NCBI GenBank assembly: GCA_028685875.1
Contig: JAQUDD010000002.1
Span: 1 to 64,000, forward strand
DNA: 64,000 nucleotides
DNA from: Candidatus Absconditabacteria bacterium
GTDB taxonomy: Bacteria; Patescibacteriota; Gracilibacteria; Absconditabacterales; Absconditicoccaceae
Reading direction: 5' to 3'
Positions 5,162-61,572 of this stretch are shown here, piece after piece. The notes under the pieces were generated by a model. The model searched no databases. It saw only the letters and a program-made list of their open reading frames with translations, and had not been told where the DNA came from. How positions within the stretch are numbered: the stretch's first letter is position 1; each line of letters begins with the position of its first letter. The position numbers and the translations under genes were made by a program.

Positions 5162-5260
5162 GATAATAAGATATTTTTTATTTAACGTCAGACAAGCTAG
5201 AAGAAGCACTCATTGAGCGAGAAAAGATGATAATAAGATATTTTTTATTTAACGTCAGAC
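5162..5260. repeat. Two perfect 32-bp direct repeats separated by 35 bp
   Basis: The 32-bp unit beginning GATAATAAGATATTTTTT and ending AACGTCAGAC occurs at 5162-5193 and 5229-5260. The 35-bp intervening sequence is unrelated. The geometry resembles a one-spacer CRISPR, but there are only two units, the repeat is very AT-rich, and no cas gene is in the window. Recombination or a duplicated regulatory or terminator segment upstream of ruvB is more likely. Confidence 0.7.
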
Positions 5261-7683: not shown

Positions 7684-7834
7684 GGATTCTTCACTACGTT
7701 CAGAATGACAAAGTGTTTGTCATCCTGAGTGAAACGAAGGATCCAGTAAATAACATGGATTCTTTCCCTTTGTTGCACTCTGGGTCAGAATGACGAGTAT
7801 TTTTGGATTGCCACGTCTCTGGCTCGCAATGATG
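7684..7834. repeat. Cluster of four dispersed palindromic repeat units
   Basis: Units: GGATTCTTCACTACG...AGAATGAC (7684-7709), GTCATCCTGAG...GGATCC (7719-7744, inverted relative to the first), GGATTCTTTCCC...CAGAATGAC (7757-7794) and GGATTGCC...CTCGCAATGATG (7804-7834). Related units occur at 23610, 39496, 55687, 60354 and 61186. The block ends 6 bp before the sufB stop codon. Confidence 0.85.
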
Positions 7835-18969: not shown

Positions 18970-20478
18970 TTACCTTTCTACTAACTTCTGATCCTCAATC
19001 TCCAAAATCCTATCAATCATAATCTCTTGTACAAAATACTGATCATGAGATACCACGAGCAAAGCGCCTTCATAGTCTTGCAAAGCACTTTCGATCACCT
19101 CCCTCGTATTGATATCCAAGTGGTTCGTCGGTTCATCTAAGATCAAAAGATCATAACTATATCATGAAATCTCCGCAAATCTTAAGCGGACTTTTTGTCC
19201 ATAGCTCAGCGTGGATACTTTCTGTTCCCAGATCGTTTCCCCTAGACCGAAATTACTCAGCACTGTCTTTGCTCTCCTCTGATCATGATACACGCCTTCT
19301 ACTTTGGAGAGAAATTCATCCATCACCGATAATTCAGAATTGATATTAAGTTGATATTGGTCGATATAACAGGTTTTGATCCCATTTCCAATCGTCACTT
19401 CAGGAGCATCATTACGCTCAAACTGAGCAACTACATCACGCAGCAAGGTCGTTTTTCCACTTCCATTTACTCCCTGAAGAAGCACTCTTTCTTTGCCAAA
19501 CATTTCAAAGCTGCAGTCCTTAATCAAAAGCTGACCAGCGATGCTGATATCTTTTTTGAGATAACGGAGTAATCTCTTAGAATTATGCACTCCTCCGTCC
19601 AAAGCAAGTTTTGCCGATTTCGTAAACTTCACTTCTTCAGGATCTGCGCCTCCAAATTCCCTCCCAAACTGCGACCTTTTCGCTTTCAAAAGTTTTCCAA
19701 AAGTCGGATTAGCATAATACGATGCTCTTTCCTGCAATTTGCGAAGCCAGTCTTCCATCTTTCTTTTGTTTCTCGCATACCTCTCAATTTCTTCCAGCTT
19801 TTTCTTTTTATTGGCTTGTTTATCCTGCTTATATGCCTCATACGCGCCTCTCCAGTTGCCAGGGTAATAGGTAATCCCACCAAACTCAATATCCACAATC
19901 CCTTCACACGCCTCATTGATCAGCGCTCTGTCATGAGAAATCATCAAAATCATCCCAGGAAAATGTTGAATATAGTTTACGAATCGCTCCCTGGTCTCCG
20001 CATCGATATGATTGGTTGGCTCGTCGAGAATGAGAATATCATTCTCCTGCAAGAGCATCTGCGCAAACAAAATCCTCCTCTGCTGTCCTCCGCTGAGCTC
20101 GCTCAGCCTACGCTTTCGAGAGATATCGGAAGGAAATCAAACTTCTTTGAGTGCTTTCTCGATCTTATACTCTTCTCGTGGTTGAACGAAATTCTTGAGA
20201 TATCCCTTCACCGTCACCGAATATCAGAATTTGAGTTCCTGAGGGATATATCCGATATTTGCATTCGTCTTGATGCTTCCCTCGCTTGGACGCGTTTTGC
20301 GTGCAATCACCCTTGCAAGGGTCGTCTTTCCCACTCCATTTGGACCGACAATTCCGATGATGTGTTGCTGAGGAAATTCAAAATTCAGATTCTTAAAAAG
20401 AGGACGTATCACATCATAGCCCTTGGTAAGATTTTGGAGAGAAAGCTGAATATCCTTATAGTCCATATGCAAGTTCAT
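18970..20478 (-). CDS. ABC-F family ATPase
   Basis: A 502-residue soluble protein with two nucleotide-binding domains and no membrane segment. NBD1 has GIVGPNGVGKTT, signature LSELSGGQQRR, ILILDEPTNHID and MISHDRALI. NBD2 has LLQGVNGSGKTT, STLSYGQKVRLR, LLILDEPTNHLD and VVSHDQYF. The linker is Lys/Glu-rich (QANKKKKLEEIERYARNKRK). ABC-F proteins act on the ribosome in translation rescue or antibiotic protection; I cannot name the subfamily. Three TGA glycines. Codon choice (many ATC and CTC) is noticeably richer in C than the neighbours. Confidence 0.93.
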
Positions 20479-20709: not shown

Positions 20710-20739
20710 TTGACTTTTATAGAGAGATAGGTATATATT
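20710..20739 (+). promoter_or_regulatory. Promoter of the 20.75 kb RNA
   Basis: TTGACT (20710-20715), an 18-bp spacer and TATATT (20734-20739), putting the start of transcription near 20746, at the first stem of the RNA candidate. Confidence 0.6.
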
Positions 20740-20746
20740 ATATATC

Positions 20747-20951
20747 AAATCATCTCGGACCCCTATGTGGGTAGGTGATTTGGTCTAGAATACAATTCTA
20801 AATAAAATCGCCCTTCCAATGCTACAAAGACCTTCAATATTTGGAGGCAACCCACTGGAACTACAACCACTAAGATGTGGCAGTGAGCACAAACCCGTGT
20901 ATTAACAGGGTTTGGGAGTACGGATTTTTGATTAAAATCCGTGCTTTTTTT
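20747..20951 (+). ncRNA. Structured small RNA candidate of unknown class
   Basis: No ORF covers this stretch. Five helices can be drawn: AAATCATCT/AGGTGATTT (20747-20781) enclosing CCC/GGG; GGTCT/AGACC (20782-20832) enclosing AGAAT/ATTCT; CACTG/CAGTG (20853-20885) enclosing CCAC/GTGG; CAAACCC/GGGTTTG (20890-20914); and the terminator hairpin ACGGATTTT/AAAATCCGT followed by T7. A promoter precedes it. It is not recognisable as tmRNA, RNase P, SRP or 6S RNA: there is no closing stem joining the two ends, no tag ORF and no 4.5S loop. It could be a trans-acting RNA or a leader of the dsbA-like gene at 21040. Confidence 0.65.
20920..20951 (+). terminator. Intrinsic terminator of the RNA
   Basis: 9-bp stem ACGGATTTT / AAAATCCGT with a T7 tract. 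Confidence 0.85.
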
Positions 20952-21039
20952 CTTTTACAAAAAACTCAGATCAACTCTCTCTTGCAAGAAGCCCTAACTT
21001 TTTTATGATAAAAAAGAATTTTATCTTGCATTATCCCTT

Positions 21040-21837
21040 ATGAAAACTTCAACCACACGACTTATCATTATTTTAGCGCTCGTTATCGGAGTAGCTATCG
21101 GACTTTTTTATCCTAATCCTCGAGAAAAGGAGCAGCCGCTTAGTTCTGATATCAATCTTTCTACAAGATCTATCGCCGAGGAAGACTGTGAAGAAGAAAA
21201 TACACTCGCCTGTGGAGGAGAAGAAATTGTGGAAGAAGTCGAAGAAATGACTTCTATTCTTAGCAATTCTGGAACAATCACTCCAGCAATTATTGAGGAA
21301 ATCAAAGTAAATGGATTTGTGCAGACGAACGGAACATCAAAATATCTCCTAGTAGAATACACGGATCTTGAATGTCCTTACTGTAAAGAGCTTCACAATT
21401 CACAAAATACTGACTATATTCTTCAACAGTTGTTAGGAGGAAATGCCGATTATGTTGTAAAACATTATCCAAAGGCCTTTCATACCGAGGCGCTTCCTGC
21501 ACATCAGATCCTCGAATGTATCGCTGAGCAGAAAGGGCAAAGTGCATATTATAACGCTCTTGATGCTTATTTCAAAAGTAATGAAAAAATAAGTTTGACT
21601 CTGAGTGACCAAGTGATTACAAGTTTGGATGTTAATGTTGAAGAGATTAGAAGCTGTTTAGAGAGTGGGAAATATCGCGAAAAAATCTTTGCTCATATCG
21701 GAGAAGCAGTAGGGATATTTGATGCAAAATATGTGCCGAGTACCATCATTATCAATACAGAAAATGGGAAATGGATCTCTTATGTAGGAAATGAAACAGT
21801 GGAAGCAGTGGAAAGGGAATTGATAGCTATTGAGTAA
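21040..21837 (+). CDS. Membrane-anchored DsbA/thioredoxin-like oxidoreductase
   Basis: A 265-residue protein with an N-terminal anchor (LIIILALVIGVAIGLFY), an acidic spacer with a Cys pair (EEDCEEENTLACGG), then a thioredoxin fold starting at KYLLVEYTDLECPYCKELHN. The CPYC active site and later cis-Pro (YVPSTIIIN) match DsbA-like (Thioredoxin_4) enzymes that form disulfides outside the membrane. A further Cys pair is in the helical insert (ILECIAEQ, IRSCLES). Follows the structured RNA at 20747 and has its own downstream terminator. Confidence 0.9.
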   Translation: MKTSTTRLIIILALVIGVAIGLFYPNPREKEQPLSSDINLSTRSIAEEDCEEENTLACGGEEIVEEVEEMTSILSNSGTITPAIIEEIKVNGFVQTNGTSKYLLVEYTDLECPYCKELHNSQNTDYILQQLLGGNADYVVKHYPKAFHTEALPAHQILECIAEQKGQSAYYNALDAYFKSNEKISLTLSDQVITSLDVNVEEIRSCLESGKYREKIFAHIGEAVGIFDAKYVPSTIIINTENGKWISYVGNETVEAVERELIAIE

Positions 21838-32748: not shown

Positions 32749-34299
32749 TTATTGATTTTGTAGTTCTGTTATAATGTTTTGATGCATAGCATACATTTCT
32801 TCTTCTATCTGAGAGGGTTGAAGACGAGGTAATAATGCTTCTAGGATAAGGTCTCAGAGGATATTATAAATATTCCATCCTTTTCTCTCCAGTACGAGAG
32901 GAAGATATTCTTCATTGTTATTGTATTCAATTTCTGCATTTTCTGCTCCAAGTCGCAATCCATATTTAATTTTGTTTATTGTATCCTTCCTATTAAAGAA
33001 CGGTTCAGTTAGTGGAAGATATTCCTCAAATGAATATCTTTCCTCTTTTTCTCCTCAAATAACATCAATTTCGTCTCTATTAGAGAATTGAAAATTATTT
33101 GTTAGTGTTGCAAACATGTGATATTCTGCTTTATAGGTGTTTTTATTAAGTGACTCTTTATTGATCGTTAAGGTTTCTTGATATTCATGAAGGAGCCTTT
33201 CTTTAACTTCCAAGTTGAGTCAATAGTTCAAAAGCTGTTTTGTGCTTTTATGAGCAATATCCATCATCACCATTCCAATGAGTCTTTGAACATATCCTGC
33301 ATGTGAATTGAGATACTTATCTGCCAGAGTGAGTTGAAGTATATTTAAATCTATTGCTCTTTCATACTCCCCTTGCTCAGCATAATAGATACCTATGTTT
33401 CATAGACTTCTTACTATAGGTTGTAATCCTATTAATTTAGGAAAATACATTTCCTCATCTTGTCGCTGTAAATTTGCAATTCTTTCTACTTGATCAAAAA
33501 AATCTGACTCCTCTAATTGTTGTAAATATTCCAATAATTCTGGATTGTTTTCTATGAATTCACCATGTGTTTTATAATATTTTTCTGTTCGTCTATCATT
33601 TCGATATCTTCGCATCTGATTTTCTTTATCTAATCCAAATCCATCCCATTTTTCATAAGGAAATTTTTCCCTAATTATATTTAAAGTTTCTATATCATCA
33701 AAACTCGTTCCAAACACTCTTGCAAATTCTTTATATCCATTTTCCTCTGCTGAGAGATTTGGATCTAATCGTGTCGCTTCAAAGTAAGCGTCTGGAATAA
33801 TTTCTGGGGTTTGTTGTGCTTGTTCCCCTATGAAGAAATAGATGCATCCCAGAATAATCACTATAATTATTGCTATGAGCGTAGATCTTCGCTGTGGGGT
33901 ATCAGACTTTTGCTTCTCTGGAAGCTGGGCAAGATGAAGTTTTTGTCTTTTTTGTTGGAGTTCGAGAGAAATACAAAAACTGATTACAAAAAGTGTGAGC
34001 GTTCGCATTAACATTTTAGATGTTGGGTCTTTTGCGTAGTAAGTAATTAATCCTGTAAGTGCAATCATTCCTCATGAGAGGATAAGAAACGCTATCTTTA
34101 TGCATTTGAGCGTAGTAAGGTTCGGGATGAAAATCGCAATACTACAAAAGAAAAAGAAAACTGAGATAAGTATCCCAATCGTTCCGTGCAGAGGAAGCAA
34201 AAGGTTAAATGCTTGAATAGTAAGGAGAACGCTTCGAATCCCTATGAGAAAGAGAATTCAACTGGCTATTTTATTTCGGAAAAGGATTTTTCTGTGCAT
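32749..34299 (-). CDS. Membrane protein with a TPR-like soluble region, 516 aa
   Basis: The N-terminus has four hydrophobic helices (ILFLIGIRSVLLTIQAF, TIGILISVFFFFCSIAIF, IAFLILSGGMIALTGL, LTLFVISFCISLEL). A basic loop follows, then a fifth helix (STLIAIIIVIILGCIYFF) and a long polar C-terminal region. That region contains YYAEQGEYERAIDLNILQLTL, a TPR-like helical pair, but only one clear unit. At least five TGA glycines. No catalytic motif seen. Downstream neighbour on the same strand is murA, about 110 bp away across a terminator. Confidence 0.72.
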
Positions 34300-34460
34300 G
34301 TGTTTTTTTATTTTAGTTAATAAATATTATCCTATCCATTATATAGATCTATCTTATTTATGCAAAAAGTTCTATTTTCTTCTCTCTCTTGTAAACGGAG
34401 AATGAAATCGTAGTATGGAAATTAGATTTTTTATTCTCTTGTGTGATCCTGCATTTTGTT

Positions 34461-36116
34461 ATGAAATATGAACTCCTAAACGAAGAATATTGACTTTCTT
34501 TTATAGAAAGACTACTGAAAATCAGGACGGTAGCATCAGATGTTGATGCTTTTTTTCAGCCAACTTTAGGTAATAGTTGGATTGATCCTTTTTTACTCAA
34601 TGATATGGAGAAAGCAGTAGATCACATTATCACAGCTATGAAAAAGAATCACAAGATTATGGTTTTTGGAGACTATGATGTGGATGGAATCACTTCGAGC
34701 TACAGTGTGTATAAATTTTTGAGATATTTTCTGCAGTATCCAAATGTAAGTATTATGTATCCCAGTAGAAGAGAAGATGGTTATGGATTGAAGGTAAAAC
34801 ATCTGGAGATGATGAAGGAAAAAAATATTGATTTGGTGATTACTGTGGATAACGGGATTACTTCCATAGAAGAAGCTTTTTATGCGAAGACGCTTGGCAT
34901 TGATTTGATTGTGACGGATCATCATCATCCTCTAAATGAGCTTCCCTCTGCTATTGCAGTGGTAAATCCTAGCTGCTCTCCTCGTTATCCTTTTAAAGGA
35001 TTGGCTTGAGTCTGAGTAGCTTTCAAACTGATTATGGCGATTCTCTCTAAAACTACATTGGATGTAAAAAGAAAGAATCAGATTTTTCATTTCTTTTTGC
35101 CGATTGTGGCGATTGGGACGGTAGCAGATATTGTTCCTTTGCTGAGTGAAAATAGGTTTATGGTGAAGAAGGGTCTAGAACTTATCAACTCCTCCGCTGA
35201 TACCTTACCTCCTGCATTGAAAGGATTTCTCTCGTATCTGAATATTAAAAGTCCTATTGATACCTTTCATATTGGGTTTATGATTGGACCGAGAATTAAT
35301 GCATGAGGGAGAATGGAAAGTCCTTATGATAGTTTGAATATCTTTCTTCATGAGGGAGAGGAACAAGTAGCGTTTTTGGAGAAAATAGATGCAATCAATA
35401 CAGAAAGAAGAAAAACTCAAGAGCAAGGAGTAAAAATAGCTGAAACCATGATTAATCCCGAAGGAAGTTTACTTTGTGCTTATAGTGAGGAGTTTCATGA
35501 AGGAGTGATCGGGATTATTGCGGGAAGATTAACGGAAAAATATTATAAACCTTCCATTGTATTTAAGATTGAACCTGAAAAAGGGACGGCAAGTGCAAGT
35601 TTGAGAGGTCCTGCATATTTTAATGTGATTGATATGATTCTTGCTCATGAGGAATTGCTTGAGAGATATGGAGGGCATAAGGGGGCTGGAGGATTAACGG
35701 TGAAGATTGAGAATTTAGCGCTTCTCTGTGAAAAGATGGAGCGTTATTGTGTTGATAAGATTCAGATTTCTGATTTGGAGAAAGTGATCAGTGTAGATAC
35801 GAAGATTTTTCCTCATGAATGGATTGAGGATAATCTTAGCTATTTAGAAAAATTTGCTCCTTTTGGAGAAGGGAATAAGGAACCTCTTTTTTTGTTTGAA
35901 GACTTGGAAGTACACAGAGTTGAAAAAGTCTGAAACAAAGGAAATGGACATATGAAAATTTATGCGTATCGAGGAGAAATGCTGATGAGTTTGCTTTTTT
36001 GGGGGAAGTGAGCTGATTGTGAGTTGGTCCCAAGTCAAATTTCTGTGATTGGAAGTATCAAAAGAGATACCTTTAATGGAGGATATTTCATTGATGGAAC
36101 GCAGATTTTGGAATAA
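34461..36116 (+). CDS. recJ: Single-stranded-DNA-specific exonuclease RecJ
   Basis: A 551-residue DHH-family 5'-3' exonuclease. Start ATG 34461 (MKYELLNEEYGLSFIERLLK) is set by the open frame once TGA is Gly. Motifs: IMVFGDYDVDGITSSYS, DLVITVDNGI, IVTDHHHPLNELP (DHH), AIGTVADIVPL, GFMIGPRINAGGRM, GVIGIIAGRLTEKYYKPS and the DHHA1 glycine signature RYGGHKGAGGLTV. The C-terminal OB-like region includes EKFAPFGEGNKEP. Six TGA glycines. Confidence 0.96.
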
Positions 36117-39441: not shown

Positions 39442-39495
39442 AGATAGGGGAGAATAAAAGTATAAAAGAGAAAGAGATTGAAAGTTATGTATGTT

Positions 39496-39798
39496 GTCAT
39501 CCTGAGTGAAACGAAGGATCCAAGGATGCATTTTTTTTGTTTCTGGATTCTTCACTGCGTTCAGAATGACGGGATGTCATTGCGAGCCAAAGGCGAAGCA
39601 ATCCAAGTAAAAGGAATTTCTTTTTTATCTGGATTCTTTCCCGCTGTTCGCTTTGCTCAGCGGGACGCGGCCTCCTTACAGTTCTCCCGCAGTTCTGCGG
39701 GACAGGCTGCCTTTCTTTGTTCGTCTTCACTTCCAGTCGTCTGAATGACGATTTATGTTCAGAATGACAGTTGGATTGCTTCGCAAGCTCGCAATGAC
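39496..39798. repeat. Large cluster of dispersed palindromic repeats
   Basis: Units in order: GTCATCCTGAG...GGATCC (39496-39521), GGATTCTTCACTGCG...GAATGAC (39545-39570), GTCATTGCGAG...GCAATCC (39576-39604), a GC-rich block with GCTCAGCGGGACGCGGCC and TTCTGCGGGACAGG, GTCTGAATGAC and CAGAATGAC units, and GGATTGC...CTCGCAATGAC (39773-39798). The third and last form an inverted pair like the ends of the GIY-YIG cassettes at 60354 and 61186 but enclose no gene. Confidence 0.85.
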
Positions 39799-55634: not shown

Positions 55635-55686
55635 AGAGGAAGAGAAGAAAAGTGTAAAAGATTAAATTATTATTATAGAATTTTTT

Positions 55687-55753
55687 GTCATCCTGAGTGA
55701 AACGAAGGATCCATATCTACTTACTGGATTCTTTAGTTTCGCTTCAGAACGAC
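55687..55753. repeat. Dispersed palindromic repeat pair
   Basis: GTCATCCTGAG...GGATCC (55687-55712) and GGATTCTTTAG...CAGAACGAC (55726-55753), an inverted pair of the same family as at 7684 and 39496. Lies between dnaE and the DHH gene. Confidence 0.8.
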
Positions 55754-60353: not shown

Positions 60354-60748
60354 GTCATTGCGAGCTTGCGAAGCAATCCAAATATTTATAGGTTCAAATC
60401 TTAATGAAAAAGTGATATGTTTACATTATGACTAATCATAAACATTGAACTCTGTATGTTTGAGTTACTTCAAATTTAGAACAAAGAGTTTATCAACATA
60501 AAATGAAGTACTTCAGGTGATTTACAGCAAAATATGATTTAGATAAACTTGTACGATTTCAAGAATCTCCTACAATTCAAGATGCTATTGAGGAGGAAAA
60601 AAGATTAAAGTGAGGGAATCGCAAACAGAAAATTTTGTTAATTGAAAATATTAACCCAAACTGGAAGGATTTGGCTTCATCTTTAGACCTCGTTTAAATA
60701 TGAATATCTACTTATTTGGATTGCTTCGTCCTTCGTCCTCGCAATGAC
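60354..60748. mobile_element. GIY-YIG nuclease cassette 1 with terminal inverted repeats
   Basis: Left end GTCATTGCGAG...GAAGCAATCC (60354-60379) and right end GGATTGCTTCG...CTCGCAATGAC (60718-60748) form inverted terminal repeats around the GIY-YIG gene 60428-60697. The cassette starts immediately after recA TAG. A near-identical cassette lies at 61186-61572. Confidence 0.75.
60428..60697 (+). CDS. GIY-YIG endonuclease-like protein 1
   Basis: 89 residues with TGA read as Gly four times (KHGTLYVGVTSNLEQRVYQH begins with two of them). The GIY-YIG hallmark is GTLYVGVTSNLEQR, where the family has GTLYIGVTSDLxxR. Then FRGFTAKYDLDKLVRFQESP and EEEKRLKGGNRKQKI with the conserved metal-binding Glu and basic region. 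Ends NPNWKDLASSLDLV. It is a very short member, close to an isolated catalytic domain, and is 75-80% similar to the second copy at 61253. Confidence 0.9.
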
Positions 60749-61185: not shown

Positions 61186-61572
61186 GTCATTGCGAGCTTG
61201 CGAAGCAATCCTATATACTCAAATTATAATGAAAAAGTGACATGTTTATATGATGACCAATCATAAACATTGAACTCTGTATGTTTGAGTTACTTCAAAT
61301 CTAGAACAGAGAATTTACCAACATAAAACGAAATACTTTTCATGATTTAGTGCTAAATATGGTTTAGATATATTAATCTGGTTTCAAGAATACTCTACCA
61401 TTCAAGATGCTATTCACGAAGAAAAAAGATTGAAATGAGGTAGTCGTAAGCAAAAGATTGAATTAATTGAAGAAATAAATCCATATTGGGAAGATTTAGG
61501 AACGTCTTTAGACTCTGTTTAAATATATATCTCTATTATTTGGATTGCTTCGTCCTTCGTCCTCGCAATGAC
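61186..61572. mobile_element. GIY-YIG nuclease cassette 2 with terminal inverted repeats
   Basis: Left end GTCATTGCGAG...GCAATCC at 61186-61211 and right end GGATTGCTTCG...CAATGAC at 61542-61572, same ends as cassette 1. Again it begins on the base after the stop codon of the preceding gene (TAA at 61183). Internal flanks (AATGAAAAAGTGA upstream of the gene) match cassette 1. Confidence 0.75.
61253..61522 (+). CDS. GIY-YIG endonuclease-like protein 2
   Basis: 89 residues: MTNHKHGTLYVGVTSNLEQR, then FSGFSAKYGLDILIWFQEYS and HEEKRLKGGSRKQKIELIEE, with four TGA glycines at the same places as copy 1. Differences are scattered, including many synonymous changes, so the two copies diverged under constraint and are not a recent duplication or assembly repeat. 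Confidence 0.9.

Follow-up and report, generated by a model that had tools for sequence, protein, structure and literature searches.

Independently transcribed intergenic small RNAs of bacteria are 100-300 nt long and often poorly conserved between species, and such an RNA is by default presumed to act through antisense pairing. Attenuation leaders and riboswitches consist of a promoter, a structured stretch and a terminator upstream of a co-oriented gene, and 6S RNA folds into a single long hairpin interrupted by a central bubble. In our search of the open-access literature, no paper on small RNAs in Gracilibacteria-type genomes was found. The window analyzed here, a stretch of 64,000 nt, belongs to contig C14 of the assembly G000 (1.03 Mb, 36% GC, 3,049 bases given as N), in whose genes TGA is read through, the code 25 usage of Gracilibacteria and Absconditabacteria. 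The window contains a candidate RNA of about 200 nt that resembles the independently transcribed small RNAs in its own promoter, intrinsic terminator and non-coding body, the leaders in its arrangement upstream of a co-oriented gene, and 6S RNA in its size and in being structured. On balance, these sequence features point to a stand-alone small RNA gene, intergenic and specific to its lineage, a reading that we consider somewhat probable.

Transcription signals and the stretch between them

The candidate RNA, present as a single copy in the genome, sits in a 561-nt gap between two divergent genes. On the minus strand lies a gene for an ABC-F family ATPase (18970-20478; its score of 364 bits falls short of the 380 that NCBIfam sets for ribosomal-protection-like ABC-F), and on the plus strand a gene for a 265-aa DsbA-like thioredoxin-fold protein (21040-21837; Pfam Thioredoxin_4), a possible cis target, whose relatives in a search of genome contigs were only 23-39% identical. 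The gap is the sixth longest among the 147 divergent gaps of the genome, for which the median is 129 nt.

A sigma-70-like promoter, TTGACT-18-TATATT, is located on the plus strand at 20710-20739 with a 10/12 match, and would place the transcription start near 20746; sites as good as this one occur about four times as often in intergenic DNA (0.79 per kb-strand) as within genes (0.19). A strong intrinsic terminator on the same strand, with a stem of 15 pairs (four G-C), a loop of 5 and a T-rich tail, is located at 20914-20948, and 91 nt separate it from the ATG of the DsbA-like gene at 21040. The promoter, the strong terminator and the distance of about 90 bp to the dsbA-like gene were all found as the first-pass annotation had described them.

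The terminator was not preceded by a co-oriented gene, as the nearest gene to its left is oppositely oriented and starts 435 nt away. Across the genome, 68 of the 118 strong terminator-like sites were located within 150 nt after a co-oriented gene, and ten had no co-oriented gene upstream; among those ten, only the site at 20914-20948 and a two-way site at C9:26621 were more than 400 nt from a neighboring gene. Since the terminator trails no plus-strand gene, the simplest interpretation is that the plus strand gives rise to a non-coding transcript, and the orphan terminator is the best argument for a transcript at this locus.

The putative RNA body (20746-20913, plus strand) comprises about 170 nt between promoter and terminator, has 44% GC against the genome mean of 36%, is predicted to adopt alternative folds and carries no coding signal. 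Its sole small ORF, of 28 codons at 20819-20905, ranks at the 3rd percentile of real gene stretches in its codon usage, as is typical of wrong frames, and neither this ORF nor an open stretch of 38 codons that ends just ahead of the terminator matched a Pfam family. A small-protein reading was rejected on these grounds, and the absence of coding potential asserted earlier is borne out. The locus could alternatively be a residue of decay or rearrangement, in which a lost gene has left its promoter and terminator around a functionless body. That the open stretch runs almost to the terminator would fit such a history, but this stretch has no Pfam match and its ORF has the codon usage of non-coding frames, the promoter and terminator both appear intact, and the GC content of the locus, which ranks 22nd among the genome's intergenic windows, exceeds that of most intergenic DNA. 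We regard decay as an improbable origin.

Predicted folding and the DsbA-like gene

The candidate including its terminator has a minimum free energy of -73.8, compared with -51.5 ± 4.6 for shuffled sequences (z -4.9). With the terminator removed, z is -2.85 and 2 of 200 shuffles fold equally well, and the antisense strand also reaches z -3.9. After GC correction, the locus ranks 35th in fold energy among the genome's intergenic loci, with 34 better, and the window that scores best at the locus belongs to the minus strand. The fold energy of the candidate is unremarkable for the genome's own intergenic DNA, and structure is weaker evidence than had first been thought.

The first-pass annotation had described five compatible helices, UAGAAU/AUUCUA, CCUUCAA/UUGGAGG, CACUG/CAGUG with CCAC/GUGG, CAAACCC/GGGUUUG and CAAAUCA/UGAUUUG. 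These local helices can indeed be drawn together, but they do not form the most stable fold: the joint drawing gives -52.3 kcal/mol, compared with -67.1 kcal/mol for a fold with long-range pairs (GGACCC/GGGUUU, GUGGGU/ACCCAC and GGUGAUUU/AAAUCGCC), where other pairing supplants the first helix. Folding of successive prefixes suggests that this first helix appears early and is displaced once about 114 nt have been made. Three hairpins on the plus strand are predicted with high probability, namely GGUGAUUU..UAGAAU-ACA-AUUCUA..AAAUCGCC at 20774-20812 (most pairs 0.75-1.0), which shares its 5' strand with the displaced helix, CCUUCAA-UAU-UUGGAGG at 20831-20847 (about 0.87) and CCAC-UAAGAU-GUGG at 20867-20880 (about 0.93).

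The same arrangement could serve a cis-acting attenuation leader, in which transcription from 20710 would halt at the terminator unless a signal stabilizes an alternative fold, upon which the polymerase would reach the DsbA-like gene. The shared strand of terminator and gene, and a 5' strand, CAAAUCAUC..CG, that is able to pair with the 5' arm of the terminator, make this conceivable, and the congeners lack a counterpart of both the RNA and the DsbA-like gene at this place. Forbidding the terminator, however, costs 12.6 kcal/mol in silico, a value that a ligand or protein could alter, and termination should therefore be the default. A promoter-like site, TTGCAA-16-TATGAT, is moreover located past the terminator at 20982-21009 (plus strand; 9/12 match, weak alone), about 30 nt ahead of the ATG, so the DsbA-like gene could be transcribed without the upstream promoter. 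Unlike attenuation leaders and riboswitches, the candidate has no antiterminator predicted to be stable; none of the riboswitch or leader families in Rfam fits it, and it shows no conserved gene-family association, with no match beside the DsbA-like, ABC-F or ruvA loci of congeners. The earlier suggestion of a leader controlling dsbA thus keeps its strand and its alternative pairing, loses ground through the fold energies and the promoter-like site past the terminator, and seems to us unlikely.

Known RNA classes and conservation in relatives

No Rfam family reached the gathering score in the window, and at E values up to 10 the only match of note on this strand was a weak resemblance of the terminator to L20_leader (24 of 58.7 bits), which agrees with the earlier view that the candidate belongs to no known Rfam class. 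RNase P RNA (RF00010) and tmRNA (RF00023) are not the candidate, as had been stated, and the genome's copies are located elsewhere, at C7:31049-31406 and C6:93459-93828, respectively. The latter (L077) is a covariance match of 69.7 bits that was unreported by ARAGORN.

Neither 6S RNA (RF00013) nor SRP RNA (RF00169, RF01854) matched at the locus at E values up to 10, in line with their exclusion in the first-pass annotation. A highly diverged 6S or SRP RNA below the detection of Rfam was nevertheless considered, as searches of this genome gave no 6S RNA, SRP RNA was found nowhere in the genus with the small and large bacterial models, and the size of the candidate fits 6S RNA. Weak 6S RNA matches occur in other families of the class. 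Against this reading, the candidate lacks any such match at the locus, its predicted fold is multibranched rather than one long hairpin, and it is absent from congeners in which housekeeping RNAs are 72-79% identical. The genome also yielded no homologue to an E. coli Ffh query, although the control queries TrmD, L19 and S16 did match. A diverged 6S or SRP RNA is close to refuted and, in our judgment, extremely unlikely. Across the whole genome, no sign of SRP was seen with both RNA models and Ffh; two SRP subunits are reported to be absent in the related Vampirococcus lugosii and in many CPR bacteria (PMC8080830).

None of the regularly spaced repeats found in the genome is a CRISPR array and the candidate matches no such repeat; a tracrRNA was rejected for want of an array and of complementarity to these repeats. 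Several other repeats were observed. Two identical 32-nt copies at 5162-5193 and 5229-5260 of the window, 67 nt apart, end in CGTCAGAC with TCTGATG upstream, and are probably a duplicated hairpin between genes. Palindrome-like interspersed repeats of the form GGATCCTTC..TCATTCTGAGTG are located at 7711-7745, 39488-39522 and 55679-55713 of the window, and in tandem arrays at C11:25690-26500 and 34250-35420. Adjoining genes at 60404-60697 and 61190-61522 are about 80% identical in DNA and appear GIY-YIG-like by eye (MTNHKHGTLYVGVTSNLEQR). The same EF-G-like N-terminus is found near two contig ends, at C7:518 and C14:170166, likely an assembly overlap or a duplication.

BLAST comparisons found no convincing homologue of the candidate in 58 relatives, seven of them of the same genus, and none in 378 genomes across the phylum, where the short matches look like chance and the best one falls in what appears to be DnaK-like coding sequence. 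A covariance model (R1) found nothing in 48 other genomes of the family; being built from a single sequence, it gives a weaker negative than BLAST with its controls. With filters off, R1 also found nothing at congener loci carrying relatives of the neighboring genes (DsbA-like, ABC-F and ruvA; best E 0.15). As positive controls, this genome's copies of RNase P RNA and tmRNA aligned with those of congeners, in 3-kb loci, at 72-79% identity (E 1e-44 to 1e-78), so that an RNA equally conserved would have been detected. With RuvA identities of 51-68%, the sister genomes are distant, and several are incomplete. The candidate had no match in phages, and in plasmids only its terminator matched, resembling Riemerella and Bergeyella sequence; three scans of viral contigs for exact motifs gave no hit. 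A 25-nt AT-rich stretch of another genome (L003 1501-1525, on G005:C26) is identical to 20784-20808 of the window; it was rejected as a homologue, its flanking sequence being unrelated and the identity possibly due to chance.

Gene-context analysis further shows that the downstream pair of ruvA and orf154 is kept together in six of the seven congeners. The sequence upstream of ruvA varies, and within 1.5 kb it contains no counterpart of the RNA or of the DsbA-like gene. In G001, the ABC-F gene (78% identical) has a different gene upstream and no RNA. Such lack of conservation, and the difference from the congeners in gene order upstream of ruvA, would also be in keeping with the decayed remnant weighed above. 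The best reading of the comparison of the RNA and its neighbors is that the candidate may be lineage-specific within the genomes searched. By the first-pass annotation's own account, a lack of sequence or covariation conservation in sister genomes would count against its reading, and neither BLAST nor the covariance search found any such conservation. Its proposal of a new CPR small-RNA class is not supported, given that no homologue was found in seven congeners, 48 other family members and 378 genomes of the phylum with controls that worked. Without a homologue, there is no covariation and no sign of selection.

A candidate small RNA gene

What survives of the proposed new CPR small RNA is a non-coding unit with both transcription signals. 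The promoter and the orphan plus-strand terminator bracket a stretch without coding signal, so that the own promoter, terminator and non-coding body of a stand-alone small RNA are all found at the level of sequence. We infer that RNA polymerase would start near 20746 from the candidate's own promoter and, without depending on either neighboring gene, would transcribe a non-coding RNA of about 200 nt that ends at the terminator near 20948. If the RNA is functional, its most likely role would be to base-pair with mRNA, using the unpaired linker at about 20813-20830; otherwise it may be a young, weakly selected transcript. Target prediction against 902 gene starts found no target, as pairing was no stronger than for shuffled sequence. 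A scan for Hfq and CsrA motifs was blank, as was its SRP-GTPase control motif, and carries no weight.

With no relative in the other genomes searched, the candidate probably represents a small RNA of the ordinary, species-specific kind. A structured regulatory RNA, acting in cis or in trans, of an undescribed class confined to this code-25 lineage of Patescibacteria is a decidedly doubtful prospect, and the candidate alone reveals no new class, since no related RNA can be set beside it. Little has been recorded on small RNAs in Gracilibacteria-type genomes, and this locus, if expressed, would offer a concrete candidate for metatranscriptome checks.
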